Shown: positions 1-58,100 of the stretch, in pieces
Position numbering within the stretch: position 1 is the stretch's first letter
Layout: each line of letters starts with the position of its first letter
Source of the DNA: Liolophura sinensis
Taxonomy: Eukaryota > Mollusca > Polyplacophora > Chitonida > Chitonidae
Direction: 5' to 3'
Length of the DNA: 64,000 nt
Assembly: GCF_032854445.1 (NCBI RefSeq)
Contig: NC_088295.1
Coordinates: forward strand, 94,421,805-94,485,804
Position numbers and translations under genes: made by a program
The notes under the pieces: model-generated
Databases searched by the model: none
Told to the model about the DNA's origin: nothing
What the model saw: only the letters and a program-made list of their open reading frames with translations

Positions 1-639
1 GGTAACCATTGTGAACGGCCACTACAGGCAGAAACCAAGAGTTTCTTGGCAGGAAGACAGCCAGGACCCAATTGCCGGTCATCATTGTGAACGGCCAATA
101 CAGACAGAAATCAAGAGTTTGTTGGCAGGAAGACAACCAGGACCCAATTGCCGGTAATCATTGTGAACGGCCACTACACACAGAAACCAAGAGTTTGTTA
201 GCAGAAAGACAGCCAGGACCCAATTGCCGGTCATCATTGTGAACGGCCACTACAGACAGAAACCAAGAGTTTGTTGGCAGGAAGACAGCTAGGACCCAAT
301 TGCCGGTCATCATTGTGAACGGCCAATACAGACAGAAACCAAGAGTTTGTTGGCAGAAAGACAGCCAGGACCCAATTGCCGGTAATCATTGTGAACGGCC
401 ACTACAGACAGAAACCAAGAGTTTGTTAGCAGAAAGAAAGCCAGGACCCAATTGCCGGTAATCATTGTGAACGGCCACTACACACAGAAACCAAGAGTTT
501 GTTGGCAGGAAGACAGCCAGGACCCAATTGCCGGTAATCATTGTGAACGGCCACTACACACAGAAACCAAGAGTTTGTTGGCAGAAAGACAGCCAGGACC
601 CAATTGCCGGTAATCATTGTGAACGGCCACTACACACAG

Positions 640-1900: not shown

Positions 1901-1997
1901 GGTAATCATTGTGAACGGCCACTACAGACAGAAACCAAGAGTTTGTTAGCAGAAAGACAGCCAGGACCCAATTGCCGGTCATCACTGTGAACGGCCA

Positions 1998-4900: not shown

Positions 4901-6705
4901 GAGTTTGTTAGCAGAAAGACAGCCAGGACCCAATTGCTGGTAATCATTGTGAACGGCCACTACACAAAGAAACCAAGAGTTTGTTGGCAGGAAGACAGCT
5001 AGGACCCAATTGCCGGTCATCATTGTGAACGGCCAATACACACAGAAACCAAGAGTTTGTTAGCAGAAAGACAGCCAGGACCCAATTGCCGGTAATCATT
5101 GTGAACGGCCACTACAGACAGAAACCAAGAGTTTGTTAGCAGAAAGACAGCCAGGACCCAATTGCCGGTAATCATTGTGAACGGCCACTACACACAGAAA
5201 CCAAGAGTTTGTTGGCAGGAAGACAGCCAGGACCCAATTGCCGGTAATCATTGTGAACGGCCACTACACACAGAAACCAAGAGTTTGTTGGCAGAAAGAC
5301 AGCCAGGACCCAATTGCCGGTAATCATTGTGAACGGCCACTACACACAGAAACCAAGAGTTTGTTAGCAGAAAGACAGCCAGGACCCAATTGCTGGTAAT
5401 CATTGTGAACGGTCAATACAGACAGATACCAAGAGTTTGTTGGCAGAAAGACAGTCAGGACCCAATTGCCGGTAATCATCGTGAACGGTCACTACACACA
5501 GAAACCAAGAGTTTGTTGGCAGGAAGACAGCCAGGACCCAATTGCCGGTAACCATTGTGAACGGCCACTACAGGCAGAAACCAAGAGTTTGTTAGCAGAA
5601 AGACAGCCAGGACCCAATTGCTGGTAATCATTGTGAACGGCCACTACACAAAGAAACCAAGAGTTTGTTGGCAGGAAGACAGCTAGGACCCAATTGCCGG
5701 TCATCATTGTGAACGGCCAATACAGACAGAAACCAAGAGTTTGTTGGCAGAAAGACAGCCAGGACCCAATTGCCGGTAATCATTGTGAACGGCCAATACA
5801 GACAGAAACCAAGAGTTTGTTAGCAGAAAGACAGCCAGGACCCAATTGCCGGTCATCATTGTGAACGGCCACTACACACAGAAACCAAGAGTTTGTTGGC
5901 AGGAAGACAGCCAGGACCCAATTGCCGGTAACCATTGTGAACGGCCACTACAGGCAGAAACCAAGAGTTTGTTAGCAGAAAGACAGCCAGGACCCAATTG
6001 CTGGTAATCATTGTGAACGGCCACTACACAAAGAAACCAAGAGTTTGTTGGCAGGAAGACAGCTAGGACCCAATTCCCGGTCATCATTGTGAACGGCCAA
6101 TACAGACAGAAACCAAGAGTTTGTTGGCAGAAAGACAGCCAGGACCCAATTGGCGGTAATCATTGTGAACGGCCACTACAGACAGAAACCAAGAGTTTGT
6201 TAGCAGAAAGACAGCCAGGACGCAATTGCCGGTAATCATTGTGAACGGCCACTACACACAGAAACCAAGAGTTTGTTGGCAGGAAGACAGCCAGGACCCA
6301 ATTGCCGGTAATCATTGTGAACGGCCACTACAGACAGAAACCAAGAGTGTTGGCAGAAAGACAGCCAGGACCCAATTGCCGGTAATCATTGTGAACGGCC
6401 ACTACAGACAGAAACCAAGAGTTTGTTGGCAGAAAGACAGCCAGGACCCAATTGCCGGTAATCATTGTGAACGGCCACTACACACAGAAACCAAGAGTTT
6501 GTTGGTAGGAGGACAGCCAGGACCCAATTGCCGGTAATCAATGTGAACGGCCACTACACACAGAAACCAAGAGTTTGTTAGCAGAAAGACAGCCAGGACC
6601 CAATTGCTGGTAATCATTGTGAACGGTCAATACAGACAGATACCAAGAGTTTGTTGGCAGAAAGACAGTCAGGACCCAATTGCCGGTAATCATCGTGAAC
6701 GGTCA
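1998..6705. repeat. 2354-bp higher-order repeat, two full tandem copies
   Basis: Distinctive variant monomers recur exactly 2354 bp apart: 1998/4352/6706, 2454/4808, 3138/5492, 3518/5872 and 3872/6226. A 2-bp deletion (GAGTGTTGGC instead of GAGTTTGTTGGC) marks one monomer in each block, near 3991 and 6345. Thus 2354 equals 31 units of 76 minus 2. A third copy starts at 6706 and decays. Within each block 1140-bp (15-mer) and 380-bp (5-mer) sub-periods are also visible. Confidence 0.9.
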
Positions 6706-8955
6706 CTACACACGGAAACCAAGAGTTTGTTGGCAGGAAGACAGCCAGGACCCAATTGCCGGTAACCATTGTGAACGGCCACTACAGGCAGAAACCATGA
6801 GTTTGTTAGCAGAAAGACAGCCAGGACCCAATTGCTGGTAATCATTGTGAACGGCCACTACACAAAGAAACCAAGAGTTTGTTGGCAGGAAGACAGCTAG
6901 GACCCAATTGCCGGTCATCATTGTGAACGGCCACTACACACAGAAACCAAGAGTTTGTTGGCAGAAAGACAGCCAGGACCCAATTGCCGGTAATCATTGT
7001 AAACGGCCAATACAGGCAGAAATCAAGAGTTTGTTAGCAGGCAGACAGCCAGGACCCAATTGCCGGTAATCATTGTAAACGGCCAATACAGACAGAAACC
7101 AAGAGTGTGTTAGCAGAAAGACAGCCAGGACCCAATTGCCGGTAATCATTGTGAACGGCCACTACAAACAGATACCAAGAGTTTGTTGGCAGAAAGACAG
7201 CCAGGACCCAATTGCCGGTAATCATTGTGAACGGCCACTACAGACAGAAACCAAGAGTTTGTTGACAGAAAGACAGCCAGGACCCAATTGCCGGTAATTA
7301 TTGTGAACGGCCAATACAGGCAGAAACCAAGAGTTTGTTGGTAGGAGGACAGCCAGAAACCCAATTGCCGGTAATCATTGTGAACGGCCAATACAGACAG
7401 AAACCAAGAGTTTGTTAGCAGAAAGACAGCCAGAAACCCAATTGCCGGTAATCATTGTAAACGGCCACTACACACAGAAACCAAGAGTTTGTTGGCAGAA
7501 AGACAGCCAGGACCCAATTACCGGTAATCATCGTGAACGGCCACTACAGGCAGAAACCAAGAGTTTGTTGGCAGGAAGACCGTCAGGACCCAATTGCCAG
7601 TAATCATTGTGAACGGCCAATACAGACAGAAACCAAGAGTTTGTTGGCAGGAAGACAGCCAGGACCCAATTGCCGGTCATCATTGTGAACGGTCACTACA
7701 GGCAGAAACCAAGAGTTTGTTAATAAGAAGACAACCAGGACCCAATTGCCGGCAATCATTGTGAACGGTCACTAAAGGCAGAAACCAAGAATTTGTTAAT
7801 AAGAAGACAACCAGGACCCAATTGCCGGTAATCATTTTGAACGGCCAATACAGACAGAAACCAAGAGTTTGTTAATAAGAAGACAACCAGGACCCAATTG
7901 CCGGTAATCATTGTAAACGGCCAATACAGACAGAAACCAAGAGTTTGTTGGCAGGAAGACCGTCAGGACCCAACTGCCGGTAATCATTGTAAACGGCCAG
8001 TACAGGCAGAAACCAAGGGTTTGTTGGCAGAAAGACAGCCAGGACCCAGTTGCCGGTAATCATTGTGAACGGCCACTACATACAGAAACCAAGAGTTTGT
8101 TGGCAGGAAGACCGTCAGGACCCAATTGCCGGTAATCATTGTAAACGGCCAATACAGACAGAAACCAAGAGTTTGTTAGCAGAAAGACAGCCAGGACCCA
8201 ACTGCCGGTTATCATCGTGAACGGCCACTACAGACAGAAACCAAGAGTTTGTTAGCAGAAAGACAGCCAGGACCTAATTGCCGGTAATCATTGTGAACGG
8301 CCACTACAGACAGAAACCAAGAGTTTGTTGGCAGGAAGACCGTCAGGACCCAATTGCTGGTAATCATTGTGAACGGCCACTACACACAGAAACCAAGAGT
8401 TTGTTAATAAGAAGACAACCAGGACCCAATTGCCGGTAATCATTGTGAACGGCCACTACAGACAGAAACCAAGAGTTTGTTGGCAGGAAGACAGCCAGGA
8501 TCCAATTACCGGTAATCATTGTGAATGGCCAATACAGGCAGAAACCAAGAGTTTGTTAATAAGAAGACAACCAGGACCAGTTGCCGGTAATCATCGTGAA
8601 CGGTCACTACAGGCAGAAACCAAGAGTTTGTTGGCAGGAAGACAACCAGGATCCAATTACTGGTAATCACTGTGAATGGTCACTACAGACAGAAACCACA
8701 AGTTTGTTAATAAGAAGACAACCAGGACCCAATTGCCGATAATCATCGTGAACGGCCACTACAAGTAGAAGCCACGACTTTGTTAACAGGAAGACAACCA
8801 GGACCCAGTTGCCGATAATTATCGTGAACGGCCACTACAAGTAGAAGCCACGACTTTGTTAACAGGAAGACAACCAGGACCCAGTTGCCGATAATCATCG
8901 TGAACAGCCACTACAGACAGAAACCAAGAGTTTGATGGCAGGAATACAACCCAGA

Positions 8956-10914
8956 CCCATTCGCCGTGAACGACAGCTACTTGCAAAATAAGGAGTTCAT
9001 ATGTGTGGTTGAGCCTAAACTATACCAGTAAGACCTAGGTCCGATTTCATGAAAGTTTCTGGTGTTATTGCTTAAGCAAAAATATTTTGCTGAGTAACTC
9101 AACTTCCATGTATATAGTTTGATTTAAGGTTTCTGGATGGGGAAAATAGGACTGCCCGGGACAAATGAACAAACAAAAAAAGACTTGAAATGCATATTGA
9201 TGGAAGACAAGTGGTTACACTGCCCAAACGGATGCTCCTGCTCTGTCGACTTCTTGTTGTCAGCAAAGCCATACTTATGTATTTATTTAGTTGATTGGTG
9301 TTTTACACCATACTCAAGAATATTTCACTAATACGACCGCCGCCGGCATTTTAGTGGGTGGAAACCCACGATTATCCGCAGGTTGCTGGTAGATCTTCCC
9401 ACGTATGACTGGAGAGGCATACAAACATTGAGACGGGAGGGTATCTTGTGTTTCCTAGCTATTGTTAGGAGACCATGACCCACTGTAAGGGGAAGTGATT
9501 ATGCACTGACACAACACATAATGTGTAAGCCGCTAGTCGACGACGTCGCGTGTTCGAATCCAGCTATTGGCGGTTCATGGTATTACCATTTGTGGTTACC
9601 GTTCCTGTGTCTATATATTTATATGGAAATCACTGTCGTATACTTAGCCAGGTGAGGCATTAAGCTAATTAGACGCAGCTAATTAGACGAATATCCAACA
9701 ATTGCAGTTGCGGATGAGAAAGCTGACTGGAGGGCAGCATGGAGCATGGGTTTACCAAGAGTTTAAAGAGTCACTCACTCGCCATGCAGTCCCTATCACT
9801 GGTACAAAGACAGAAAGCCACGGCCAACGGATCTAGACATTCGTGGGGAAAGTATCGATACAAAACACAACCAACCTGATTTACGCCAAACTTAATATCG
9901 CACTTTGCTATAGTCCTTCGCTAAACTGGTGGGAGGTCCAAACATTCCAGAATGCATGGCGTCTATGGATTTTACTTCATGATATTCGTTAAATTATATA
10001 CATTATCGAAGAGAATAAGTTTCAATTTAACAGGTGAAAAGGCTTTTCATCCGGCACTTGTAAACTTGGTCATACTCACACTCTTCCGGCAAACTTTAGG
10101 TCATGTTTCCTGAAATTCTCTCTAATAATTCGAATATTATGTAGAATTCTCAAACGTTGAACCTTCTCTGCGAAGATACCATTCACCGTTTTTGGAACAG
10201 AATAAGTCCATACTTGTTTGTGGAAATATGAATAAAAAATGATGTTTACCACTGGCGACTCATACCATTAGCTTTCGAACTAGATGGAATTTTATGAGTG
10301 TGGTGAACAGTTATAGTTCGTTAGAGGTGTATTCCACTGTGTGTTAACTGATATATCACTAATCTAGACCAAATATACTGAATATCTTCTTGACTGTTTC
10401 AACAACAAAGATGTCTAGATGCCAAGTTTTTGGATCATTGACAAAATAATCAACATTCTATGTCCTACAGGAGTTAATTAAGCCTTACAATTTTAGTGAG
10501 CACATTCAGTCGTATATATTTTGTACCAACTACAAGGAAAAATGGAGACTTATCCCATTTAATATAAGGAGATTAGCTTGTTCGTGGCAAAATGGGGAAG
10601 ATAACAAATGGGACATGGTTGTGGAATTGGTTCTCTGATCATGCAGAAACCTCGTGTTTGTTAAGCGAAGGTGATCAAAAATTAAGAGCGCGAGATCGAC
10701 ATGGTTAAATATAGATGTCTATAGGTCTGTTTGTTAATGTATGAGTATATGTGGCCGTTTGGCAGCAGTTCAGGAAAAACTGCATTCAAGCGTTTTTCAC
10801 CTTTAATTATTAACGCTGCATTAGGCGCGTGTATAGGATGGTTGAATTAGGGGTGATTATCGTCGTGTTAAATTTCGCAATTCACAATCCATTCAGCACT
10901 GTCCACGCCCACCT
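8956..10914. other. Intergenic DNA, no gene recognised
   Basis: Mostly AT-rich unique sequence between two arrays. It contains a SINE fragment (9280-9425) and a short tRNA-like B-box motif near 9550 (GTTCGAATCC). Small ORFs such as 9137-9331 have no splice context or recognisable motif. Confidence 0.6.
9280..9425 (-). mobile_element. SINE family A fragment
   Basis: Carries the diagnostic tail of the family read on the minus strand: TATTTATTT, then TTGATTGGTGTTTTACACC, CTCAAGAATATTTCACT and the GGTTGCTGGTAGATCTTCCC segment. Diverged, with no clear tRNA head attached. Confidence 0.75.
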
Positions 10915-15347: not shown

Positions 15348-15505
15348 TCAGAAGAAATCAGATGCTCTCAGTCGTCTCCCTTTGGTCTTGGAGTTGCTTC
15401 CCTTTAACCTTGGCCTGGTTAGAGGAGACTTGAGAATACTCTGGTCAGGTTTGGTTTCGGGGTTGAATGGTATCTCTGCGCTGACGTTCATGCTGTCATT
15501 AAAAT
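15348..15505 (-). CDS. RRP1: RRP1 exon 11 (stop codon)
   Basis: Acceptor GTGTTTGCAG|ATTTTAATG; residues 586-637 and TGA. Contains DFNDSMN, SILK and the C-terminal RRLRASDFF. The end of the protein matches the family, so no further coding exon is expected. Confidence 0.93.
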
Positions 15506-18500
15506 CTGCAAACACAATGGGATAGAGCAAATATCAGGGAGACCCAGGTGGAGAAGTGGTGCACCATACAATTCATTCCTGGAATACCATATCCCTATAC
15601 TGAATTTATCCTGCAACAACGCTCCCGTAGGGAAATGAGCATTTCTTTGAGTGAAGAGGTTTCGCACGATGCGCATGATTACCAGGGAGAGAGCAGCGCT
15701 GCTGAGTACTCCACTGCTGACTGTACACACAGCAGCTGAATATGAACAGGAATGAAGTGCCTGGGACGCGCAGCGAGAAAACCACAGCCAAACAAATCAG
15801 CTAGAGCTTACCTTGTGAGGTGTTCCTCTTCATATCAAAGCTAACCCGCTTCTTCACAGCTGAGTGCGCTCCATTGCTAACGTGTGTCTGCAAAGTTCAA
15901 CATACCGTTGGGTCAGGCAATTAAAAACCCAGAGCCGTGAGTGTGCCATTCCCACCCAGGCATCACCATAAACACATCACAAATACATAAAAACAGATGT
16001 GGTGGTGAGGGTGGTGAAGAGCTACATGTAAAATCATTGTGCATTACATGAATGCAAAACCTGATTTTTAAACATGCAGTGCCTTTTGTTATATCATTCT
16101 AAACATTTACCTCAATTCTACTACACAAAAGACAGTAATTATGAAATGTTCACATGGGGCATCAAATATGAAACATCCATATCGTGCTTTTGTGCTTTCC
16201 AATGTGTAAAATCTGAGCAAAATGTAGGCAGTATTTTCTGAGATACCACCCTTAACATGCTGACAAGAGCATATTCTTTGTACAGGTGAGCTAAAACTCC
16301 CTGACATGCAGATTTACCTACCATCTTATTGCTCTTTTTGACAGGTTCTGTCTGTGGTGGTCGTAACTTCGTGAATGCCTTCCTGACAAAAGCTGGCGGC
16401 GTTTTCAACCCTTCCTCAAACTGAGCAAAACTGGCAGGAGCGGCCTTGACCTCTGTTTTCCTATGATGCTTCTGACAAGGAAACTTCCCCTGCTGAAGTG
16501 TGGGGTCAAAGCCACTAAACTTGCCCTTGTATTTCTTGTTAGGTATCCAGATGTCCACTTCTTCCCCGGGTGGATCGTCTGGAACTGTTTCTGAACTGTT
16601 TGTGGAGCTAACATTGTCAATGGATTTTCTTTTCTTCTTTGATTTGACATTTTCCTCTGTATTCTCGGAGATAAGCATATTTATGGACTCATTGTTTGTC
16701 ACTTTCTTCTTTTTCTTGTGTTTCTTCTTCTCAGGAGCTTCTTGCTCTCTTGAATCCTCAGAACTAGCCATGTTTATGTTGACATCTACAGTCAATATAT
16801 CTTGTTCCTTTTTATTGCCATTTTTTCGTGCTTTTTTGGGAACAGCTACCTCTTCAATGTCTGCCTCCTCCATCTCTATGGCAAAGGACTGGTCATTTTC
16901 TGAGCTAATCTCCTTTCCAGATTTCCCTTTCTTCTTTATCTCCTTTTCAAGTTTGTGCTCTTCTGCAATGATTCCCACTAGAAAACACATGGTAATTAGC
17001 CATTAATTTTTACATTTATGGCGTGTGTGAAGGAAAAGAAAACTCTGTCATACAGATAGAAGTACATGTACATGTTAGGTTGACACACAAAAACAAGTCA
17101 TGTAGCTGGGCCCAGAGTTCTTCAGTGTCTGGAGGTAATATTGTATTGCCTCCATTCACCTAACATTCTGTGTGCCTATAGGTCACATTGCTGGTAACAA
17201 AAGCTGACTACACAGAGAACACTCTGCCTTTTCGTTTGCTGACCAAACAGATTGAATTATGACATCACAATAAATGTATGGCTTGTTGATAGACAGCCAC
17301 AATTGGAGCCTTGTAGTTTCTAACTTTCAGATGAAAAATATCAAGACATGTTTATACAGACTACATGCGATGGACTTCCATCTCCCCAAAACTGATCCGA
17401 GTGTTTTCATTTAAGACTGACTCACTGAGCTTTTCTCGTTTCCTCCTCTTCCTCTCGCTGAGTCCGCTTTGTTCGTATAAGTGCTTGTCCAGCTTCTCTA
17501 GTCTCCTCACAGCTGAGCTGATGTCAGAGGACTGTATAGGGTCCTGGTGCTCATTCACCCCCTCTGTACCTTCATCAGGCAGAATACCCTTACAGACATT
17601 CTGCAGCCTGCCAACACATTTACACACATAACTATAAAAGCTGATGTCAGAGGACTGTATAGGGTCCTGGTGCTCATTCACCCCCTCTGTACCTTCATCA
17701 GGCAGAATACCCTTACAGACATTCTGCAGCCTGCCAACACATTTACACACATAACTATAAAAGCTGATGTCAGAGGACTGTATAGGGTCCTGGTGCTCAT
17801 TCACCCCCTCTGTACCTTCATCAGGCAGAATACCCTTACAGACATTCTGCAGCCTGCCAACACATTTACACACATAACTATAAAAGCTGATGTCAGAGGA
17901 CTGTATAGGGTCCTGGTGCTCATTCACCCCCTCTGTACCTTCATCAGGCAGAATACCCTTACAGACATTCTGCAGCCTGCCAACACATTTACACACATAA
18001 CTATAAAAGCTGATGTCAGAGGACTGTATAGGGTCCTGGTGCTCATTCACCCCCTCTGTACCTTCATCAGGCAGAATACCCTTACAGACATTCTGCAGCC
18101 TGCCAACACATTTACACACATAACTATAAAAGCTGATGTCAGAGGACTGTATAGGGTCCTGGTGCTCATTCACCCCCTCTGTACCTTCATCAGGCAGAAT
18201 ACCCTTACAGACATTCTGCAGCCTGCCAACACATTTACACACATAACTATAAAAGCTGATGTCAGAGGACTGTATAGGGTCCTGGTGCTCATTCACCCCC
18301 TCTGTACCTTCATCAGGCAGAATACCCTTACAGACATTCTGCAGCCTGCCAACACATTTACACACATAACTATAAAAGCTGATGTCAGAGGACTGTATAG
18401 GGTCCTGGTGCTCATTCACCCCCTCTGTACCTTCATCAGGCAGAATACCCTTAGACATTCTGCAGCCTGCCAACACATTTACACACATAACTATAAAAGC

Positions 18501-21500
18501 TGATGTCAGAGGACTGTATAGGGTCCTGGTGCTCATTCACCCCCTCTGTACCTTCATCAGGCAGAATACCCTTACAGACATTCTGCAGCCTGCCAACACA
18601 TTTACACACATAACTATAAAAGCTGATGTCAGAGGACTGTATAGGGTCCTGGTGCTCATTCACCCCCTCTGTACCTTCATCAGGCAGAATACCCTTACAG
18701 ACATTCTGCAGCCTGCCAACACATTTACACACATAACTATAAAAGCTGATGTCAGAGGACTGTATAGGGTCCTGGTGCTCATTCACCCCCTCTGTACCTT
18801 CATCAGGCAGAATACCCTTACAGACATTCTGCAGCCTGCCAACACATTTACACACACTGACTTTTTTTATCTTTATCTGATATGTATTTCTTTATTAATT
18901 CCTTTATTTAACTAGTGTTTAATGCCATACTTCCGGTACTCTGCATTTATATAATCAGATAGATATATGGGTGAAGGACCCAGTGTGCCTTGGGAATGGT
19001 CATAACTCCAGTTCTGCCTGACTGAAGGATACACCCACTGGCTGCCTGACTGAAGGATACACCCACTGGCTGCCTGACTGAAGGATACACCCACTGGCTG
19101 CCTGACTGAAGGATACACCCACTGGGCACCTGACTGAAGGATACACCCACTGGCTGCCTGACTGAAGGATACACCCACTGGCTGCCTGACTGAAGGATAC
19201 ACCCACTGGCTGCCTGACTGAAGGATACACCCAGTGGCTGCCTGACTGAAGGATACACCCAGTGGCTGCCTGACTGAAGGATACACCCACTGGGCGCCTG
19301 ACTGAAGGATACACCCACTGGCTGCCTGACTGAAGGATACACCCACTGGCTGCCTGACTGAAGGATACACCCACTGGCTGCCTGACTGAAGGATACACCC
19401 ACTGGCTGCCTGACTGAAGGATACACCCACTGGCTGCCTGACTGAAGGATACACCCATTGGGCGCACAGTGTGATATCTTTATCCATTTTCATCTTTATA
19501 TGTGTGTAGATTAGCGGCACAATGTTCACCTGTTGTCAATCAGGTAACGGCCAATAATTACATTTTTTTTCCTATTTCTTCTCATTTTGGGGCCACCTGG
19601 CCTTCTCTTTAAGTTACTTATACATGTAACTGTAGCAGGAGTCTTTAGTTTCTTTTTTCTCACATGGTTTTCTCACCATCTAATGAACATCAAACTCATA
19701 TCTTTACTTATCCAAAAAGCTGGGATAGAAATGTTATATTCTGTTTCTGCACACTAATATCTGTCCCTGCACACTAATATCTGTCCCTGCACACTAATAT
19801 CTGTCCCAATACTACAAAGAACTAGGGTAGCAACCACTCCCCACACACTTCCTGCAAATCTTTCACTTTTAATACAGCAATGCATTACCTATTGACCAGC
19901 TGGTAGATGATTGGTCTATTTCTGGCCAGACAGGACTTGGCCTTGGCTTCTTCAAACAGCTTCTCAGCCAGGTCTTCCAGGTTAACCTGTTAACAAGAAC
20001 AGATTCCTATCACAGCACTTTCTGCCAGATCTCATATGTAAATGCATAGTTTTGTCTTTCATTAAGAATGTTAAACAAGGAGAAGTATAACTGCACTGTA
20101 CAAACATCATTTACTTGTGCCTGCTTATTCAGTTATGCTGAAGTCAATCATAAACCAAGCTACATGTAGACACCTACCTCTAACCTAGGGGCAGTATCTT
20201 CATCTGCGTCATCAACAGTTGTCTCCCCTCTTAATCTTTCTACCTCCTCATCAATGAGCTTACCAAACAGGTGGGTGATAATGTACCGTACCAGAGTTTG
20301 ACTGTAAACAACAGGTGGGTGATAATGAACAGTACCACAGTTTGACTGTTAACAACAGGTGGGCAAAAATGTACAGTACCACAGTTTGACTGCAAACAAC
20401 AGGTCAGTGAAAATGTACAGTATCACAGTCTGAATGTAAACAACAGGTGGGTGATAACGTACAGTACCACAGTTTGACTGTAAACAACAGGTGGGTGATA
20501 ATGTACAGTACCACAGTTTGACTGTAAACAACAGGTGAGTCACACTGTACAGTGCCACAGTTTGAGTGCAAACAACAGGTGGGTGATATTGTACATTACC
20601 ACAGTCTTACTGCAAACAACAGGTGGGTGATACTGTGCAGTACCACAGTCTGACTGCAAACAACAGGTGGGTGATACTGTACAGTACCACAGTCTGACTG
20701 TAAACAACAGGTGGGTGATAATGTACAGTACCACAGTTTGACTGTTAACAACAGGTGGGTGACAATGTACAGTACCACAGTCTGACTGTAAACAATAGTT
20801 CAGTGATAATGTACAGTACCACAGTTTGACTGCAAACAACAGGTAGGTGATACTGTACAGTACCACAGTCTGACTGCAAACAACAGGTGGGTGATAATGT
20901 ACAGTACCACAGTCTGACTGTAAACAACAGGTGGGTGATAATGTACAGTACCACAGTTTGACTGTAAACAACAGGTGGGTGACAATGTACAGTACCACAG
21001 TCTGACTGTAAATAATAGTTCAGTGATAATGTACAGTACCACAGTTTTACTGTAAACAACAGGTGAGTGATAATGTACAGTGCCACAGTTTGACTGCAAA
21101 CAACAGGTGGGTGATAATATACAGTACCACAGTCCGACTGCAAACAACAAGTGGGTGATAATGTACAGTACCACAGTCTGACTGTAAACAACAGACCAGT
21201 GAAAATGTACAGTACCACAGTCTGAATGTAAACAACAGGTGGGTGATAATGTACAGTACCAGAGTTTGACTGTAAACAACAGGCGGGTGATAATGTACAG
21301 TATCAAGTTTGACTGTAAACAACAGGTGGGTGATAATGTACAGTATCACAGTTTGACTGTAAACAGGTGGGTGAGTGACAATGTACCATAGTACAATTTG
21401 ACTGTATTTATTTATTTATTTGATTGGTGTTTAACGCCGTACTCAAGAATATTTCACTTATACGAAATAGACGGCGGCCAGCATTATGGTGGGAGGAAAC

Positions 21501-24500
21501 CGGGAAGAGCCCAGGGGAAATCCACCTTCCTACATACGGCGCAGAGGAAGCCAGCATGAGCTGGACTTGAACTCACAGCGATAGCATTGGTTAAAGGCTC
21601 CTGGGTCATAACGCTGCTCTAGTGCGCTAAGCAACTGAGCCACAGAGGCCTCCCACTCTGACTGTAAAATAACAGGTGGGTGATAATGTACAGTACCACA
21701 GTCTCAGTGTAAACAACAGGTGGGTAACAATGCAGCATAGCCCAGTCTGAGTGTAAACAGGTGGGTGATAATGTACAATGGCAGAGTCTGTGACTGTGAA
21801 CAACAGGTGAGTCATAAGGTACCACACCACAGTTTTTATAAAACAGGTGAGTGAGAATGTACAGTACCAAAGTCTGACTATTTATTTGACTGGTGTTTAA
21901 GCCTTACTCAAGAATATGTCACTTATAAAACAGTGGTCAGTATCAAAGGTGGAAGAAAACTGGAAACCCATGACCCGCCGAAGGTTGGTGGCAGACCTTC
22001 CCATGTATGGCTAGAAAGGAAGCCAGCTTGAGCTTCTTGGTGTAGGGCTCCTGGGTCACTATGCTGCACTACCATGCTAACCACTTGGCCACGGAGGCCC
22101 CCAGGCCTAACTGTAAACAGGATACATAATGTACCACACGCCAGTCTAAAGTGTGAACAGATCCATAACAATTATTTGATTTTGAACACATTACATGGAA
22201 AAAACAAACCTATATGTATAATATACACAGCACTATTGACTGTGAAGCCTCCTACTCAACTAGAAATAACGGAAACACCAAATGAACTTACCTCTTTAAT
22301 GCTGGCAGTTGAGAGTAGAATGGCTTAAGGAAAGACGAGACCTGACTGGCTGTTAGCTGTAAGAAATTCACACCTTCGTATAGAAAACTGTAAAGGCTTA
22401 ACTTTGATCAATCTAATTCTAGGTGTCACTGTACATTCACACCTGTCACCAATCACTCCAGATAAAGCCAGACTAGATGCCGTAAGTTATAGTAGTTTAA
22501 TTCTGACCTAGTTATAAATCCAAGTACACGGAAAAAAACATTACAGCTTCCCTGATCACATCTACACCATTGTTCAATCTAGTCTATTATCAAAAACTCT
22601 TTCAAAAGGGACTATAAAATTTAAAAGTGTCTAATGTACATTAGATAAAGCATAATATGACAGCAGCTTAAGCTTTTCCAATACACTCTGCTTCTCATTG
22701 TTTTGTACCAGGTAATTACTCCAATAGCTAATCTTGCAAACATGTGGAGTTTAAAGAATACCAACAACAAAGCACACCACCTTCAACATGACAGACAGCT
22801 CCGATGACCACAGCTACCCAGACGCTCACCTGAGCAGCCCCGACTTTAGACAGCTCCTCCAGGTAAATGTCTACAATGTGATACTTAAGGCCCTCTGGAA
22901 CGCACCCTTCACCATCAACATCAATGATCTCTGTTGTTATGATGTCTGTGAACTGAGCCAGGTGAGTGTCATCCCAGCCTTTATTCCTCAGGTACACCAG
23001 ACTTTGGTGGTGGAAGCGACGGATCAACTGCAAGGGAGACAACTCAACATAAGACCACTGACACCGGTTCTCACACGTGGATTTATAACCAGGAGACACA
23101 AATCTCGGTCATGTTACAGGTTTTGTATATACATTTGTATATACATTTGTATAACAAAATTTATTCACTTATAATCAGTTTTTTCAGCTTTCTACAACCT
23201 AAGATCGAGTACAAAGTTTCCAGCAACTCACCATCATAAACTTGTCCATTCTCCAACGATCAATGCCGTGCCATTCTCTGGCCTCCGTCCGGAAAAATAT
23301 CCGTATAAAGCTGAACACCAGTGAGGTGTTACCATCAAAACAATGAACCAAGCTGGATATAGTTGTAGCAAGTTCTTCCTGTAGAAATAAAATGTGAAAA
23401 ACTTGGAATAAATATTACGGCTTGCAAAAACAGTGTTATCCAGGATATTGCAGTGTAATTTATCTATTTATTTATTTGATTTGTTTTTTTACGCCGTACT
23501 GAAGAATATTTCCCTCATACGACGGCGGCTAGCATTATGTTGAGAGGAAACTGGACAGAGCCTGGAGGAAACCCATGACCGTTCGAAGGTTACTGGCAGT
23601 GTAATATAAACTGTGTGTTAAAATGGTGTTAAGCTGATACACTATTTAGCAATTACAAAACACGCCATAGCTTATAGAAACCCTTTACAGTAAGGTGAAT
23701 GTGCGTGGGGTTTGCTGACGTTGGTTACCGTCGCTTACTTTCACACGGGCTGAGTTAGCGACAAGATGACAAAAGTGGGTCATTAGTCCCGCGCCTGTTT
23801 CTTTACCCTACATGGCAGCTACTACCCTATGGTCCCTAATCCACACCACGCGGGGTCAAGTAACTGACTCCGTGTGCAGATCTCCCAACCAGCCATCTAT
23901 AACTATACCCATGACTTAAACTAAAGAAAATATCAAGTCTGGTGATGACTATTACAAACCTGTCAATTCCAAACACTGTCTCGATCCATGGTCATGAAAT
24001 ACAAAATACTATAATGTACCCTGCATTCCTCGAAATGGCAAACGATTGTTTCTGTAACGGTAAGTCACGTCTTGTGCAGCCTTGTCTTGTGCAGCCTGAG
24101 CCCTCATTATGTAACTAATATCTGTACATGTTTATTTTACCTACAAATGGATTTCACAGACATATATCGTGAACCTACCATTTAATTTGAGTGAAGTATG
24201 TCATTCTACGCACACATTTTCTTTATTACAATGGGAACTGTCTCCTATTGCAGAAGAGTTACCTTTTCCACAATGTGAAATCAGGAAAACTCCATTAAAC
24301 ACAGAAAACATAATTTCCGAACACTATGACAACCTTTGACCCCTTTTCCGTAGCACTGTGTACAAGTGGCATATCAGGAGCCATACAGGATTTGTCCGTG
24401 TTGTTGACATATTAGAAGTTCACACAACACTAACTGGCTATATATCAAAATGAAGTGCATGTTTTATGATTACTGGAATGCAAATATGCCCAAGTCTCGC

Positions 24501-27500
24501 CAGCAACAGTTAAGACTTTTTTGCCCTCTGTCAGCAAAAATTACACCATGAACAGGTATAACAGAAATGTGGAAATTTTGAGCCCTGTAGTTGTTAGTTG
24601 TCACTATAAACACACTCTGAATCATCATACGCTGGTAATTTGCAAGTAAGCATTTTTCAGGATGCTAAGTACAGGAAGAGCTCTGCATGCATATTAACGG
24701 ATATTTGACATGCCACTGATATTTGACATGCCACTGATATTTGACATGCCACTGATATTTGACATGCCACGGATATTTGACATGCCACTGATATTTGACA
24801 TGCCACTGGGTACTGGGTGATCACGTTCATGCTCATCTATTTCCAGAGAGATTTCTCACGCATTCCCTTTCATCATAAAATGGCCATCATAAAACAATCA
24901 AGGTGTACCTTTTGTGAAGTAAGCCTGTATGTACTAAATTTATTATGATTAAAACTGAGGAAAACATGAACTGTTGGTGGTAGGAGCATAGAGTGAGTGA
25001 GTGAGTGCTTGGGGTTTAACCTTGTACTTAACAATTTCTGTCATATGATGATGAAGGAGTCCTTAGAGTGCATGTAATGTGCCTCCTTGTAGCAGGACGC
25101 ATTTCCACCACTCTATTATCTAGTGCTGCTTCTAGTAAGCCGTCCCACCCGAGCCATTATACTGACATGGGTCAAACCAGTCGTTGCACTATCCCCTTAA
25201 TACTAAACACCAAGTGAGGAAGTTACGACTTCCTCTTTTAAGGTTTTAGGCGTGACTTGACCCATGATTGACCCTGGATCTACTGCTATCGAAGCGGGGT
25301 AATCTGGTTCCACTGAAAAAACACAGCATGGACAACAGAAACCAGTACAGCACCATGAATGTATGTGGGGCAATCTGGCTCCACTGAAAAACCACAGCAT
25401 GGACAACAGAAACCAGTACAGCACCATGAATGTATGTGGGGCAATCTGGCTCCACTGAAAAACCACAGCATGGACAACAGAAACCAGTACAGCACCATGA
25501 ATGTATGTGGGGCAATCTCGTTCCACTGCAAAACCACAGCATGGACAACAGAAACCAGTACAGCACCATGAATGTATGTGGGGCAATCTAGCTCCACTGA
25601 AAAACCACAGCATGGACAACAGAAACCAGTATAGCACCATGAATGTATGTAGGGCAATCTCGTTCCACTGCAAAACCACAGCATGGACAACAGAAAATCA
25701 GTACAGCACCATGAATGTGTGTAAGGAAATTTGGTTCTATTGGCACAGCTAACAGAAAACCGCAGGACACACTAGAATGCTGATCTAGTTTGTTAAAAAA
25801 TGGGAATGATGGCTTGAGTGTTCACCTGGACTAGTGGCTTATCTGACATCCACATACAGTAGTGTAGCCCCTTCCAGATCTTCAGTAAGTCCTCGTCTGA
25901 CAGGTCACCTGTAACACCAAGAATGCAGTGAAGCGAGTTACAAAAACAACAAGCATTAGTATTTACTAACCTGAGGAAACCATTCAGAAACTGGAGGAAA
26001 CCATTTAAAAACCTGAGAGAACCATTTGAAAACTTGTGGAACCATTCAGAAACTGGGTTAAATTATGAAGAATCCAGAGAAGACATCCACAAGTTTGACA
26101 GTTATTAGGTTTGTGGGTAGAGGAGACTATTCAGTAAGGATACCAACTCACCTGATGCACATGCTATTAAATCCGTAAACAAGTGGAAGTTATTCGACCT
26201 GGCATGTGGCCTTTGACTTTGTAACTGATTTCCTACATCACGACTTTTTGGCCAGGTGAAAACCCTTGACTCTCAGTTCATTTAGCTCAGCAATACCAAC
26301 AAAAGCCTTGTGGTAAGTTTCAGCTGCTATCATTTAGGATGGCAGCATTATGAGGAAGTTTCTTATTTAAAGAATTGGTCGTTTCTTTATGCTTTTATCC
26401 AAGCACAGCTTAGTGCCACATGTTCTGCACCACTAAAAGCGAATCGAGAAGATTTGGCAAAGCATAGCTTGAATTTATGGTTAAATAAACGACATTTAGA
26501 GTCAACTGAACTACGACTTACATGGTATGTGTCCAATTCCAGCCAAACAGTTATTAATTTGGTAGGAATTCCAACTTAAATGGTGCACACCCTCCTGCAT
26601 CTGACGCTAGTTCAATGGTAAGCTACCTGGCAGGTAAGTCTCCCTCTCATGTGATCTTTGCCTTTGTAATTGACTGACTACGTCACAGCTGTTTGGCCAG
26701 GTGAAAACCCTTGACCATCGTTCAACTCCCAATTCATTTAGCCCAGCGATAAAGACAAAACCCTGCGGTAAGTTTTGGCTGCTCTTGCTTAGCATTATGA
26801 TTTTCTTATTCAAACAAAGATTGTTTCTGTGTCTTTTTATCCATCCGGAGCCGAGCCCCTTGTGTGACGGTAGCATAGATTTTGCTTGGATATTCGTCCA
26901 GTCTACAACCCAGACGAAATCTCCACCACCTGTGATTTTTCACACATGTGCATTGTGAAAAATAGCAGTGGGGGGAGTCTCACTTTCATTCATGGACTTT
27001 CCAAGAAATGTGGCACACCTCTGATTTCAGAAAGAGCAGATGTGGCAACGTTTTACCTTTATGGTAAAATAATGAACATTTAGAGCGAAATGGACTATGA
27101 ACTATGTGGTAAGTCCCATATTCGACATATCCAGACCATCATTTTTTAATTTGCACCTTATTTTGTTTACAATTTTGTATCCCTCAATTTGGTCCTTGCG
27201 TTGGTCACAACTGGAATGTCTACATTCACTAACTTCAGTGAGAAAACCATTCAAAAACCTGAGAAAATCATTCAGAGAGTGGGTTTAATCATAAGAAAAC
27301 CAGTGGAGATATCCACAACTTCTTTGTACCATCATAAACCTTGTGATGGCCGAACCAGCAAACAACGTGGTCTGTGTTACACGGTGTTCACTTTCCGTAA
27401 TTATCAACAACAACACGGTAATTGGAAATTCCACCAATACACTTTTCCCTTGCCCTCTTACCCCTTGTAGGCACTGCTTTAAGTTGTAACCATTTTCGTA

Positions 27501-27588
27501 GCCTCTTCACTGCCTTGTCACGGGTCTTCTTTTCGTTTCCAGCAAGTCTTTGAGCAAAGTGTACTTCTGCTGCCACTACAGTCGCCAT
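15348..27588 (-). CDS. RRP1: Ribosomal RNA processing protein 1 (RRP1/Nop52 family), 11 exons
   Basis: Nucleolar protein needed for pre-rRNA processing in large-subunit assembly. Joined CDS: 27588-27462, 25908-25826, 23378-23232, 23027-22830, 22356-22292, 20301-20178, 19986-19889, 17607-17426, 16977-16322, 15887-15812, 15505-15348. This gives 1914 bp and 637 residues; every junction is AG/GT and all phases match. Residues ~7-240 form the Nop52 domain, with hallmarks [58 protein letters not shown] and LFEEAKAK. Residues ~330-560 are acidic and lysine-rich with basic clusters ([16 protein letters not shown]) suited to nucleolar targeting. The C-terminus carries RVSF (574-577) and SILK (608-611) PP1-docking motifs and ends RRLRASDFF, as in vertebrate RRP1B (ends AMDFF). 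Family assignment is firm; RRP1 versus RRP1B is not separable because that duplication is probably vertebrate-specific. Two minisatellites cover the acceptors of exons 6 and 8. Confidence 0.95.
15812..15887 (-). CDS. RRP1: RRP1 exon 10 (RVxF PP1-docking motif)
   Basis: Acceptor ACTTTGCAG, donor ACAAG|GTAAGC; residues 561-585. [14 protein letters not shown] corresponds to KVTFGLNRNMT in human RRP1B. RVSF fits the RVxF docking consensus of protein phosphatase 1. Confidence 0.9.
16322..16977 (-). CDS. RRP1: RRP1 exon 9 (acidic/lysine-rich region)
   Basis: Acceptor TTTTCTAG, donor AAGATG|GTAGGT; residues 342-560. A split ATG codon joins it to exon 8. Alternating acidic and lysine blocks suggest disorder and nucleolar localisation. 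[14 protein letters not shown] and [13 protein letters not shown] near its end recall conserved motifs of RRP1B. Confidence 0.92.
17426..17607 (-). CDS. RRP1: RRP1 exon 8 (3'-most copy of a repeated acceptor)
   Basis: Acceptor TGTTGGCAG|GCTGCAG, donor AGCTCA|GTGAGT; residues 281-341. [13 protein letters not shown] aligns with human KLQDLAGGIFPED, and the downstream KRRKREKL stretch is basic. This is the only copy that continues past GACATCAGC into unique coding sequence; ten further copies of the acceptor plus the first ~90 bp lie upstream. I use the 3'-most acceptor as the minimal model, but six more acceptors would also preserve the frame. Confidence 0.85.
17517..18857 (-). repeat. 123-bp minisatellite spanning the exon 8 acceptor of RRP1
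   Basis: Eleven copies of a 123-bp unit, counted by the acceptor motif at about 17600, 17723 and onward to 18830. On the gene strand each copy contains GTGTGTAAATGTGTTGGCAG, then the first ~90 bp of exon 8 to GACATCAGC, then jumps back to intron sequence (TTTTATAGTTATGTGTG). The intron-most copy joins unique intron DNA at AAAGTCAGTGTGTGT. Copies appear identical apart from one near 18454, which lacks 2 bp. The unit is 41 codons and is open on the gene strand, giving a long repeat ORF. Long plus-strand ORFs here are antisense shadows. Confidence 0.97.
18858..19011. other. RRP1 intron 7, unique segment
   Basis: Short AT-rich spacer between two minisatellites within the intron; nothing else seen. 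Confidence 0.6.
19012..19462. repeat. 28-bp minisatellite in RRP1 intron 7
   Basis: About 16 copies of a 28-bp unit, CTGCCTGACTGAAGGATACA followed by CCCACTGG. Variants replace GGCTG with GGGCGC or GGGCAC in some copies, and CCACT with CCAGT in two adjacent copies. Overlapping minus-strand ORFs of ~155-205 codons are repeat artefacts. Confidence 0.96.
19740..19806. repeat. 20-bp repeat, three copies
   Basis: CTGTCCCTGCACACTAATAT in three tandem copies (first with CTGTTT), in RRP1 intron 7. Confidence 0.9.
19889..19986 (-). CDS. RRP1: RRP1 exon 7
   Basis: Acceptor CTTGTTAACAG, donor AATAG|GTAATG; residues 249-280 plus two bases. [20 protein letters not shown] corresponds to ANRLFEMASRQSTPSQNRKR of human RRP1. 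Confidence 0.93.
20178..20301 (-). CDS. RRP1: RRP1 exon 6 (last exon of the Nop52 core)
   Basis: Acceptor TTGTTTACAG|TCAAAC, donor GAG|GTAGGT. Encodes residues 207-248, starting with a split serine codon and running through [20 protein letters not shown] into an acidic DDADEDTAP segment. Its acceptor and first ~30 bp are the source sequence of the 44-bp minisatellite immediately upstream in the gene (20280-21404), so about 25 near-identical acceptors precede the true one. Confidence 0.92.
20280..21404 (-). repeat. 44-bp minisatellite spanning the exon 6 acceptor of RRP1
   Basis: About 25 copies of a 44-bp unit (plus strand: CAGTACCACAGTTTGACTGT, then AAACAACAGGTGGGTGATAATGTA). Read on the gene strand each copy is CACCTGTTGTTTACAG|TCAAACTGTGGTACTGTACATTATCACC, that is, the exon 6 acceptor with the first ~30 bp of exon 6. 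The true exon differs by a few bases (TCAAACTCTGGTACGGTAC). ORFs of ~150-168 codons in all minus frames follow from few stops in the unit. Confidence 0.96.
21405..21654 (-). mobile_element. Full-length tRNA-derived SINE, family A
   Basis: On the minus strand: an A-box-like TGGCTCAGTTG, 50-60 bp later a B-box-like GAGTTCAAGTCC, a central body (GGTTTCCTCCCACCATAATG), and a tail ending GAATATTCTTGAGTACGGCG...ACACCAATCAAATAAATAAA. It is inserted within the 44-bp minisatellite, flanked by imperfect TTTGACTGTA / TCTGACTGTA, which may be the target duplication or simply repeat sequence. I know similar elements from mollusc genomes but cannot assign a named family. Confidence 0.85.
21655..21879 (-). 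repeat. 44-bp minisatellite, continuation beyond the SINE
   Basis: About five more diverged copies of the exon 6 acceptor unit resume immediately after the SINE, showing that the element landed in an existing array. Confidence 0.85.
21880..22104 (-). mobile_element. SINE family A, second copy
   Basis: Diverged copy in the same orientation as the one at 21405, with the tail TTTATTTGACTGGTGTTTAA, CTCAAGAATATGTCACTTAT and a head ending GTGGCCAAGTGGTTAGCATG on the minus strand. A scrap of the 44-bp repeat (AACTGTAAACAGG) follows it. Confidence 0.8.
22292..22356 (-). CDS. RRP1: RRP1 exon 5
   Basis: Acceptor TTTCTTACAG, donor AAAGAG|GTAAGT; residues 186-206 plus two bases. Encodes [20 protein letters not shown], corresponding to LTADQNLKFIDPFCRIAA in human RRP1. 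Confidence 0.9.
22830..23027 (-). CDS. RRP1: RRP1 exon 4
   Basis: Acceptor TCCCTTGCAG, donor GCTCAG|GTGAGC; 66 codons (120-185). Contains the helical repeat segment ending in [14 protein letters not shown], aligned with human IFLEELTKVGAEE. Confidence 0.95.
23232..23378 (-). CDS. RRP1: RRP1 exon 3
   Basis: Acceptor TTTCTACAG, donor ATGATG|GTGAGT; exactly 49 codons (71-119). Contains [20 protein letters not shown], matching the family's REWTGIDRLRLDKF signature. Confidence 0.95.
23455..23600 (-). mobile_element. SINE family A fragment in RRP1 intron 2
   Basis: TTTATTTATTTGATTTGTTTTTTTACGCCGTACTGAAGAATATTTCCC and the GACGGCGGCTAGCATTATG body; head missing. Confidence 0.8.
23601..24692. other. 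RRP1 intron 2, unique sequence
   Basis: No exon, repeat or RNA gene recognised. Confidence 0.5.
24693..24808. repeat. 18-bp repeat, six copies
   Basis: Tandem GATATTTGACATGCCACT in RRP1 intron 2. Confidence 0.92.
24993..25300 (-). mobile_element. SINE family B, near full length
   Basis: On the plus strand it begins GTGAGTGAGTGCTTGGGGTTTAAC, continues ATGATGAAGGAGTCCTTAGAG and TCTAGTGCTGCTTC, and ends in GAGGAAGTTACGACTTCCTC...GGCGTGACTTGACCC. Read on the minus strand this is a SINE ending in AAGTACAAGGTTAAACCCC(A)AGCACTCACTCAC. Its head abuts the 71-bp minisatellite. Confidence 0.8.
25301..25740. repeat. 71-bp minisatellite in RRP1 intron 2
   Basis: About six copies of a 71-bp unit containing ATGTATGTGGGGCAATCT, CCACTGAAAAACCACAGCAT and GGACAACAGAAACCAGTA. 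Two alternating variants (GGCTCCACTGAAAA and CGTTCCACTGCAAA) are interspersed. ORFs on both strands are artefacts. Confidence 0.95.
25826..25908 (-). CDS. RRP1: RRP1 exon 2
   Basis: Acceptor TGTTACAG, donor CCAG|GTGAAC. Residues 43-70 include [16 protein letters not shown], the most conserved stretch of the family. Joins exon 1 through a split glycine codon and ends in phase 0. Confidence 0.95.
25909..27461 (-). other. RRP1 intron 1 with diverged internal duplication
   Basis: Holds two related segments: TTTGGCCAGGTGAAAACCCTTGAC near 26250 and 26690, each followed by similar text down to GTGGTAAGTTT / GCGGTAAGTTTT and later CATTTAGAG...ACTACGAC / GGACTATGAAC. A degenerate ~23-bp repeat built on GAAACCATTCAGAAAC occurs at 25975-26060 and again near 27240-27300. 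No exon recognised. Confidence 0.55.
27462..27588 (-). CDS. RRP1: RRP1 exon 1 (start codon)
   Basis: Encodes residues 1-42 plus one base. The ATG at 27588 is chosen because the family motif AQRLAGNE lies 11 residues downstream, as in the human protein. Ends ACAAGGG|GTAAGA, phase 1. Confidence 0.93.
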
Positions 27589-55100: not shown

Positions 55101-58100
55101 TTACAGCGTTTAGCCCGGAGGCCATAACATTTCAAATAATAAGAAACATGGTTGGTGTTCAACCATACATTTAGTTTTGTATTTGTGTGTAATATTTTTC
55201 TCACGCCTGTTAATTAGTCGTTATACTCTCCTAATTATTCCTCTTCCTAATTATCTCCTAATATGCGTGTGTGTATTACGCACGGCAGCATGAGCACGGA
55301 AACAAATGCGAGAACCGATTTCATAACATAGCCTACTATTAAACATGCGTCTGTCACATAGACCTAGTTGTGAGTCAGGAACTGAATTGTATACACAGCC
55401 GCGTATATTCTTCTGAGATGTACAGTACTGTGTATTACTTACTGGAGAATGTCGTGGCTCGGCACACGATCAGCATTCAGACACGGTAACCTTGTGTACA
55501 TCTGTAGTTATAAGCGTTCTCACTTAGACGGTTTTACCACAGAACACGTTCAACATAATCTTTGACACGGGAACCTTGTACACATCTGCAGTTATAAGAG
55601 TCCTCACTAAATTTGTTACATGTTTTCTCAGTGACAAGATACGATAATATATGGTGTCAGTAAAATTCATACTGGGCTCGGATAATATGAGGATTACTGA
55701 CACCATATATTTCCATATCCTATCCCTGAGTAACCATGTACCGTAACTACTTATGTCCCAGCAGATATGTCACACACAGCTGTGCTTGAATATCTTAATG
55801 TTACAACAGACATGTCACACACAAATGTGCTTGGGTATCGTATAGTCAAAACAGGCATGTCACTCACAGTTGAACTGGAATATCTTGATGTCACGCATAA
55901 TTGTGCTGAGTATCTTCATCTCACAGCAGACATGTCACACACAATTGTGCTTGAATATCTTCATGCCAGAGATATGTCGCACACAACTGACCACATCACG
56001 TGACAACCTCACCTGACCCTCTATCCTCCTCTGTTGTAGTGTCCCATTGTGAGGGCGCAGTCCTGGTGCGCGCACCATCTCCCCAGGCGGCCATGGTGGG
56101 TAAAGAGCCGATAGTCGTGGAGTGCCTGTACCGATCCACTGGCAAAGAGATCATCTTAGGTGTCAATGTACACCGCCAACGGTCCTACGAGGCCACCTCC
56201 ACCCTTATAGCTCAAATCCCTAACAAGGATTTTGTTAGTTTACCCCCTACCCTCGTGGACAAGTACCTAATGAACAAGGCTAACGTTAGCATCGAGAGCA
56301 AGGGAGACTTCATATCCGTCCAGATGTCCATCTTCCCGGCTGAGTGTGACGATGAGGGCACGTATGAGTGTGAGGTACAGGTGTATGGGGGACTCACCCC
56401 AAAGAGGCCAAAGATCAAGGTTCACCTGAATGGTAAGATAGCGTGCCGACGTGTATGAGTGTGAGGTACTGGTGTATGGGGGACTCACCCCAAAGAGGCT
56501 AAAGATCAAGGTTCACCTGAACGGTAAGATAGCGTGCCAACGTGTATGAGTGTGAGGTATAGGTGTATGGGGGACTCACCCCAAAGAGGCCAAAGATCAA
56601 GGTTCACCTGAACAGTAAGATAGCGTGCCAACGTGTATGAGTGTGAGGTACAGGTGTATGGTGTGGTGTGGAGGGAGGAGGACTCACCCCCATGAGACTT
56701 AAGATGAAGGTTCATCTGAATAGTGAGGCAGGTAATTCTTTCATGGAGGGAGCATATTGCTCTTTCTCGCACCAATACCAGTGTATACATTTAAAGGCAG
56801 TTAACGGTGGTTTAAGGGAATGGTTTGTTTAAGAGAACTGTTTAGGGGAAGGATTATTTAAGAGAATAGTTGTTTAGCGGAAGGTTTGTTTAAGAGAACG
56901 GTTAATTAGGAGACGGTTTGTGTAAGGGAGCGTTTTTTTTTTATTTTTTTTTTTTAGGGAGGTTTGTTTAAGGGAACGGTTTTTTAAGGGGAGGTTTATT
57001 TAAGGGAGCTGTTGTTTTGGGGGGGAAGGTTTGTGTAAGGGAACGGTTGTATAGGGGAAGGTTAATTTAAGGGAATTGTTGTTTGGAAAGACTTGTTTGA
57101 GGGAACGGTTGTTTAGGGGAAGATATGTTTAAGGGAACGGTTGTTTAGAGGAAAATTTGTTTAAGGGAACGGTTGTTGAGGGAAAGGTTTGCTTAAGGGA
57201 ACTGTTGTTTGGGGAAGGTTTATTTAAGGGAGCTGTTGTAAAGATGAAGATTTGGTTTAGGGGACGATTTTAGGGGAAGATTTGTTTAAGGGAACGGTTG
57301 TTTATGAAAGGTTTTTTTAAGGAAGCGGTTGTTGGGGGAAGGTTTGTTTCAGGGAACAAGTGTTTGGGTGAAGATCTGTTTAAGGGAACGCTTGTTTAGG
57401 CGAAGGCTTGTTTAAGGGAACGCTTGTTTAGGGGAATTTTTGCTTAAGAAAACGGTTGTTTAGGGGAAGGTTTGTTTAAGGAAACGGCTGTTTAGGGGAA
57501 GGTTTGTTTAAGGAAACGGTTGTTAGGGGAAGGTTTGTTGAAGGGAACAGCTGTTTGACACAGCTGCAAAGGGAAGTCTCTGGCCAGCGATATGGATTTT
57601 AATGTTGCGCCGCTGTGCGGTTCTCACACAAATGCCGGACCAACCATAAACAACAATAAACATACCATTCACAGCGCGCTGAACAACGCCGAGGTCACTG
57701 GGGTCACAGTGATGTCAGAACATAAATACTCTGTCCCAACCTTTGTTGCTAAGGATATTTAATACACATGCATTCTTTTCATCTAAAGTGTGTACCAACA
57801 TTATTCTAACCAATACCTGAAACAATTTTATTGATGAATGTTGATTAAATAGTTGAGCGCGAGGACCCTAGTGATGGGGCGAAGTGGCAAGAAGACTACG
57901 AGCGCCGCACAGGCTCAATGGCTAAGCATGCCTGGTGGTGGCAGTGATGTAAAGCGAGCGATTGAGACCGGCACATGGACTGCAAGGAGTACACCAGATA
58001 TGTTCTATAGTAAATTGATTTGCACCTGATGTCTGGTATTATTTATTTGTCAACAAGTGAAAGAAAACTCCGAGTTGTTCAGAAGCCAGTCACATATAGT

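Follow-up and report, generated by a model that had tools for sequence, protein, structure and literature searches.

What becomes of splicing when an acceptor site has been copied in tandem, together with the start of its exon? The question is raised by a window of 64,000 nucleotides (nt) from the genome of the chiton Liolophura sinensis (C1:94421805-94485804), in which a minisatellite repeats the end of intron 7 and the start of exon 8 of the gene for RRP1 (Nop52). Since the repeated unit is a whole number of codons, the original prediction, made from the letters of the window, was that splicing to successive acceptors would lengthen the protein in steps. Minisatellites that copy an exon boundary are found to be frequent in this genome, and splicing probably bypasses the upstream acceptors of exon 8 for the most part.

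Everything below comes from the genomic DNA of one assembly, and the choice of splice sites is inferred from its sequence. The copy searched has 609,464,459 bases in 632 contigs, slightly fewer than the 609,495,693 bases given for assembly GCA_032854445.1 in its description, where the species is named Liolophura japonica (PMC11068029); the name was later amended to L. sinensis (PMC12441733). Amphioxus was rejected as the source of the DNA, because a homeodomain is followed by KLTGP, a mark of spiralian Lox5.

RRP1 and the copied acceptor of exon 8

Exons are numbered by our own predicted model of 11 exons and 637 amino acids (Table 1). The identity of the gene as a member of the RRP1/Nop52 family is indicated by the predicted protein, which carries the Nop52 domain (PF05997, E 3.9e-70) and has human RRP1A as its closest solved relative (8fkp, E 1.1e-61). 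The alignment with human RRP1A spans the join of exons 5 and 6, and a second, weaker segment (i-Evalue 0.0015) covers that of exons 7 and 8, where the aligned letters are EAVANRLFEMAS...LYKVIRKLQDLAGGIFPEDE. Exons 6 and 8 each have an array at their acceptor, and these alignments fit the last acceptor of each array, that nearest to the exon body, as the authentic one. Using the last acceptors, RRP1 reads through to its full 637 residues, and the authentic exon lies intact at the array edge.

The unit of the exon 8 array, 123 base pairs (bp) long, consists of the last 32 nt of the intron, AG included, followed by the first 91 nt of the exon. Eleven acceptors, all reading GGCAG/GCTGCAG, have their first exon bases at 17607, 17730, 17853, 17976, 18099, 18222, 18345, 18466, 18589, 18712 and 18835, numbered here from the exon body outwards. 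The unit equals 41 codons, and the one of its three sense frames that is open is the frame of RRP1, which stays open for 929 nt upstream of the authentic acceptor. Acceptors 1 to 7 are therefore in frame and would insert between none and six 41-residue blocks, for predicted lengths of 637, 678, 719, 760, 801, 842 and 883 residues. The eighth copy (18466) lacks 2 bp, because of which acceptors 8 to 11 lead to early stops. Apart from this deletion and the flank of the outermost copy, the copies are identical. A DNA search of the whole assembly with the unit, by a method that passes over very common words at first look, gave 11 matches, all of them inside this array.

Thus far the original prediction stands: it had named the gene, placed the exon 7 donor at 19889, counted eleven copies holding intron end, AG and start of exon 8, given the unit as exactly 41 codons, open on the gene strand, and singled out acceptors 1 to 7 as those that keep the frame. 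The added blocks had been placed in a variable linker in the middle of the protein; a block would come after the segment LQ..GI.P, which is common to human RRP1A. At the other end of exon 8, the predicted donor at 17425-17427 (CTCA/GTGAGT), whose placement in the model relies on the frame and on the next acceptor, is the weakest of the RRP1 donors, and none of 95 sampled donors scores lower.

Frequency of boundary-copying arrays

The frequency of such arrays was estimated in genes matching the myosin-head, Adaptin_N and Cullin families (81, 37 and 33 rows). From these, 31 match-dense stretches were picked before any repeat search, with 47, 32 and 30 exon matches, respectively; outside the chosen stretches lay 34 of the 81 myosin, 5 of the 37 adaptin and 3 of the 33 cullin matches. 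Boundaries were placed by a splice-site heuristic based on splice weights, and 10 of 218 possible boundaries failed refinement. Arrays were those found by Tandem Repeats Finder (TRF) with a period of 9 or more.

Raw overlaps of at least 6 nt with arrays were found for 8 of the 109 exon matches (3 myosin, 2 adaptin, 3 cullin). Of the 208 refined boundaries, 9 lie within an array (95% confidence interval 2.0-8.1%), namely 6 of 101 donors and 3 of 107 acceptors. When read, the spanning arrays carry the splice signal inside the repeated unit, as in an acceptor unit of 32 bp that is repeated about 43 times and a donor unit of 31 bp with 18 copies. A cullin gene at C11:28508300-28513900 has two boundary arrays and a third that touches an exon. 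In this same stretch, a period-39 array beside a cullin exon (C11:28511793) extends into the exon match by a few bases but was left uncounted, as most of its printed units have no AG.

Frequent as they are, arrays span 4.3% of the sampled boundaries, a smaller share than the 15.8% that they occupy of all the sampled DNA. Over the 208 boundaries, the exon-facing edges of arrays fall inside the exon once at 150-100 nt, never at 100-50 nt and eight times in the last 50 nt, while the first 50 nt of intron hold 6 edges and the next 50 nt hold 11, followed by 1-6 per 50 nt up to 600, with fewer boundaries contributing beyond 400 nt. The idea that array birth is favoured exactly at splice junctions was therefore rejected: the count at the boundary is not above that in the adjacent intron, so no hotspot is claimed, although arrays are somewhat commoner near exons.

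Another acceptor array in RRP1

RRP1 itself provides a further example. At exon 6, a 44-bp unit made of 8 nt of intron end and the first 36 nt of the exon is repeated (Table 1), and relics of the array extend to about 21877, past an element inserted at about 21406-21660 that we take to be SINE-like (a short interspersed element). Local alignment finds 29 decoys; of the 28 that cover the site, 24 keep the AG, and the decoys diverge by 7.7% from their consensus. This divergence and the inserted element mark the array as old, and older than that of exon 8. Splicing to its upstream acceptors would truncate the protein, since all 21 that match one pattern and were tested lead to an early stop. In addition, the final 1.6 kb of that intron hold 19 AGs upstream of the authentic site that score, to one decimal, at least as high as it does. 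For RRP1 to be made as in the model, splicing must use the last exon 6 acceptor.

Selection on the decoys and on the frame

Twelve arrays were compared, nine from the sample and the three of the window, so that not all of them were chosen blind. The AG or GT of the decoys is intact in 147 of 161 copies. Changes from consensus affect the decoy dinucleotide at 13 of 322 positions and the remaining unit at 298 of 7043 (Fisher p = 1), which gives no overall sign, possible exceptions aside, of decoys being either kept or purged.

The same holds for the frame. With periods of 44, 123, 91, 31, 32, 124, 66, 31, 47, 47, 38 and 37, two of the 12 arrays have a period divisible by 3, and one is both in frame and open, against 2.58 expected by chance. 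An in-frame period was accordingly rejected as a sign of function. For the exon 8 array alone, the chance of being in frame and open is 0.16. It does stand apart in its open length of 7.55 copies, the next longest among the 12 being 1.34, and it is the sole array of this set for which long isoforms are possible, but no observation points to selection for them.

How the exon 8 array would be spliced

The exon 8 array is likely to be a minisatellite that spans an exon boundary, like the 'mirages' of amphioxus, and to be tolerated since the site nearest to the exon body is the one mainly used. It would have arisen when a short segment, by chance including the junction of intron 7 and exon 8, was duplicated in tandem. 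The duplication would have put the added acceptors on the intron side, leaving the authentic exon body untouched at the array edge. Splicing would then take place mainly at the copy nearest to this body (acceptor 17607, with an exon of 182 nt), because exon 8 is flanked by introns 2281 and 448 nt long, and the closest sites across an exon tend to pair. Introns of these lengths make exon definition likely, a mode in which splicing is reported to prefer the sites nearest to each other across the exon (PMC9225289). The remaining copies would be removed with the intron, and would therefore evolve neutrally and be free to change in number. Support comes from the second acceptor array in RRP1, from a donor array in a neighbouring gene with immunoglobulin (Ig) domains, from the arrays at 9 of 208 sampled boundaries, from the overall neutral look of the decoys and from the 'mirages' of amphioxus, which reportedly leave splicing undisturbed.

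Several points weigh against this reading. The first concern the site itself: 10 of the 11 exon 8 acceptor copies are identical from -22 to +12, so that the local sequence gives the last copy no advantage, and the acceptor is weak, at the 7th percentile of 104 sampled acceptors. Scores are from a small matrix built on those acceptors and the 95 donors, all placed by heuristic, rather than from a published predictor. Moreover, for 3' sites between long introns, the results of PMC9225289 describe the upstream preference as significantly reduced, a weaker statement than that of the abstract, and Reed and Maniatis, as cited there, found the upstream of two competing 3' sites to be favoured. The second concern neutrality. 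In the 37-bp acceptor array of the cullin gene at C11:28508300-28513900, 5 of 11 decoys are intact, and beside an adaptin exon (C7:4461000-4466100), a 47-bp acceptor array has GAG in 5 of 8 printed decoy rows where the authentic site has CAG. As GAG would weaken a site, these two arrays indicate that some decoys may be selected against. The neutral look of decoys could also come in part from homogenisation of young arrays. Some leaky use of the acceptors that neighbour the last one is quite possible, because the acceptor is weak and none of the 95 sampled donors scores below that of exon 8.

If such use were substantial, the array would be an acceptor variable number tandem repeat (VNTR) that makes isoforms: several of acceptors 1 to 7 would be used, and the RRP1 linker would grow by up to six 41-residue blocks, the number available differing between alleles. 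It is supported by a 41-codon unit whose reading in the gene frame stays open from seven acceptors, and near-identical, weak acceptors would favour leaky choice. Yet being in frame and open is not above chance, the sole difference among the copies is a deletion that breaks the frame, the protein can be made only if splicing ignores the 44-bp array of the same gene, and the amphioxus precedents are reported to splice normally (PMC3087553, PMC3902484). We regard this alternative as unlikely. Its corollary, that individual chitons carry different RRP1 sets in 41-residue steps, with the weak, near-identical acceptors chosen by chance or by regulation, seems no more probable to us. What stands of the original prediction on this point is the frame arithmetic with its series of 0 to 6 blocks, as a possibility; neither the production of the isoforms nor a meaning of the in-frame unit is supported, given that arrays copying splice sites are frequent, that in-frame, open units do not exceed chance, and that the exon 6 decoys tested would all truncate the protein. 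The isoform inference is thus possible but not favoured.

Single copies could also become small exons, running from their own acceptor to a donor within the unit (for example GAGGGG/GTGAAT, 49 nt), an intermediate that has been proposed for intron birth in amphioxus globins (PMC3087553). Each unit does hold both an acceptor and a donor, the latter at the 17th percentile of sampled sites, but both are weak, and a 49-nt exon would shift the frame unless included in threes, which makes exonisation very improbable. Hardly more credible is an array inflated or collapsed in assembly, since, although the copies are identical save for one 2-bp deletion and HiFi coverage is just 14x, the mean HiFi read of 8,347 bp exceeds the 1.34-kb array (PMC11068029) and the genome also has comparable arrays whose copies have diverged.

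Features of the window

Table 1. Positions in the window of the RRP1 gene, of the exons concerned and of the arrays that copy an exon boundary.
Feature	Position	Strand	Basis or remark
RRP1 (Nop52) gene	15348..27588	-	11 coding exons, 637 amino acids, open reading when joined
RRP1 exon 8, exon-body-proximal (last) acceptor, 182 nt	17426..17607	-	Gene model and human RRP1A over exon 7/8 join
123-bp minisatellite, 10.9 copies	17516..18856	-	TRF, 99% matches
Start of variant copy, 2 bp missing from exonic part	18450..18466	-	Eighth copy from exon body
Intron flank of outermost copy	18857..18885	-	Unlike sequence between inner copies; without TTTTATAGTTA
RRP1 exon 7	19889..19986	-	Gene model; donor directly after 19889
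RRP1 exon 6, authentic (last) acceptor	20178..20301	-	Gene model and human RRP1A over join
44-bp minisatellite, 25.9 copies	20266..21406	-	TRF; copies RRP1 exon 6 acceptor
91-bp minisatellite copying exon end and donor	56362..56661	+	Authentic GT at 56433; gene with Ig-type domains

In the gene with the 91-bp array, the affected exon matches V-set below the Pfam cut-off, and an exon downstream matches Ig_3 above it. The window is unusually repeat-rich relative to the sampled gene stretches, with a tandem repeat share by TRF of 46.5%, and its first 9 kb (1-8966) are occupied by a 76-bp array of 118 copies. Two further arrays lie in RRP1 introns. Upstream of the 123-bp array, intron 7 contains a 28-bp minisatellite of 16 copies (19014..19461, reverse strand) whose units hold an acceptor-like CCTTCAG, and intron 2 has a 71-bp array (25296-25722) whose units include a run rich in T that ends with TTTTCAG or TTTTGCAG. 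The latter units are acceptor-like but, by eye, unlike the start of the next exon.

Why these arrays matter

The frequent occurrence of boundary-copying minisatellites in the chiton is a more interesting finding than the isoform inference. With up to dozens of near-identical sites beside one exon, the arrays are natural experiments on the choice made by the spliceosome, and they ask whether it takes the first site reached or the nearest one across the exon. At 9 of 208 boundaries, they make this question testable on many genes with existing RNA-seq. Their frequency also suggests a by-product of minisatellite-rich genomes, one that could feed intron gain, shifts of exon boundaries and misannotation.

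Comparison with known systems

In-frame tandem repeats in coding sequence, or coding VNTRs, are able to vary the length of a protein. The exon 8 array differs from these in that its units lie on the intron side and reach the protein solely through an upstream acceptor. Minisatellites of Caenorhabditis elegans, tied to multiple splicing decisions, share the association with splicing, and the listing and the start of the abstract of that report hold nothing on copied exon boundaries (PMC4039745). The main text of a chiton genome comparison has neither 'minisatellite' nor 'tandem repeat' (PMC12005716). In the open-access literature, subscription journals and preprints lying outside the search, arrays of this kind are reported from amphioxus only, among the matches listed. 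What the chiton presents is a known kind of array in another phylum, at a frequency without report in the open-access literature searched, again among the matches listed.

The Rogers model, in which introns are born by tandem duplication of segments containing AG/GT (cited in PMC3087553), is similar in that each duplicated segment includes splice signals and has the potential to turn into an intron. In contrast to the model, the chiton copies lie inside one existing intron, with no new intron shown.

The closest parallel is provided by the 'mirage' minisatellites of amphioxus, described in Adh3, the globins BflGb6 and BflGb9 and troponin C, with similar repeats in PGBD5, and reported to leave regular splicing undisturbed (PMC3087553, PMC3902484). 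For amphioxus, length differences between haplotypes and reverse transcription PCR are reported, whereas the chiton arrays are known from one genome sequence alone. The chiton adds a mollusc, the 9 of 208 boundaries of a small systematic sample, two arrays in one gene and a unit that is both a whole number of codons and open. As to the concerted evolution of 'mirages', the inner exon 8 copies are identical but for the one deletion while the outermost flank differs. In both animals, tandem units run across an exon-intron boundary at either splice site, and the amphioxus unit lengths (10-72, 150-160 and 157 bp) bracket those of the chiton. Many, though not all, copies in 'mirages' keep their AG or GT, as do those of the chiton, and the chiton arrays likewise combine a boundary-spanning unit with an intact authentic exon at the edge.

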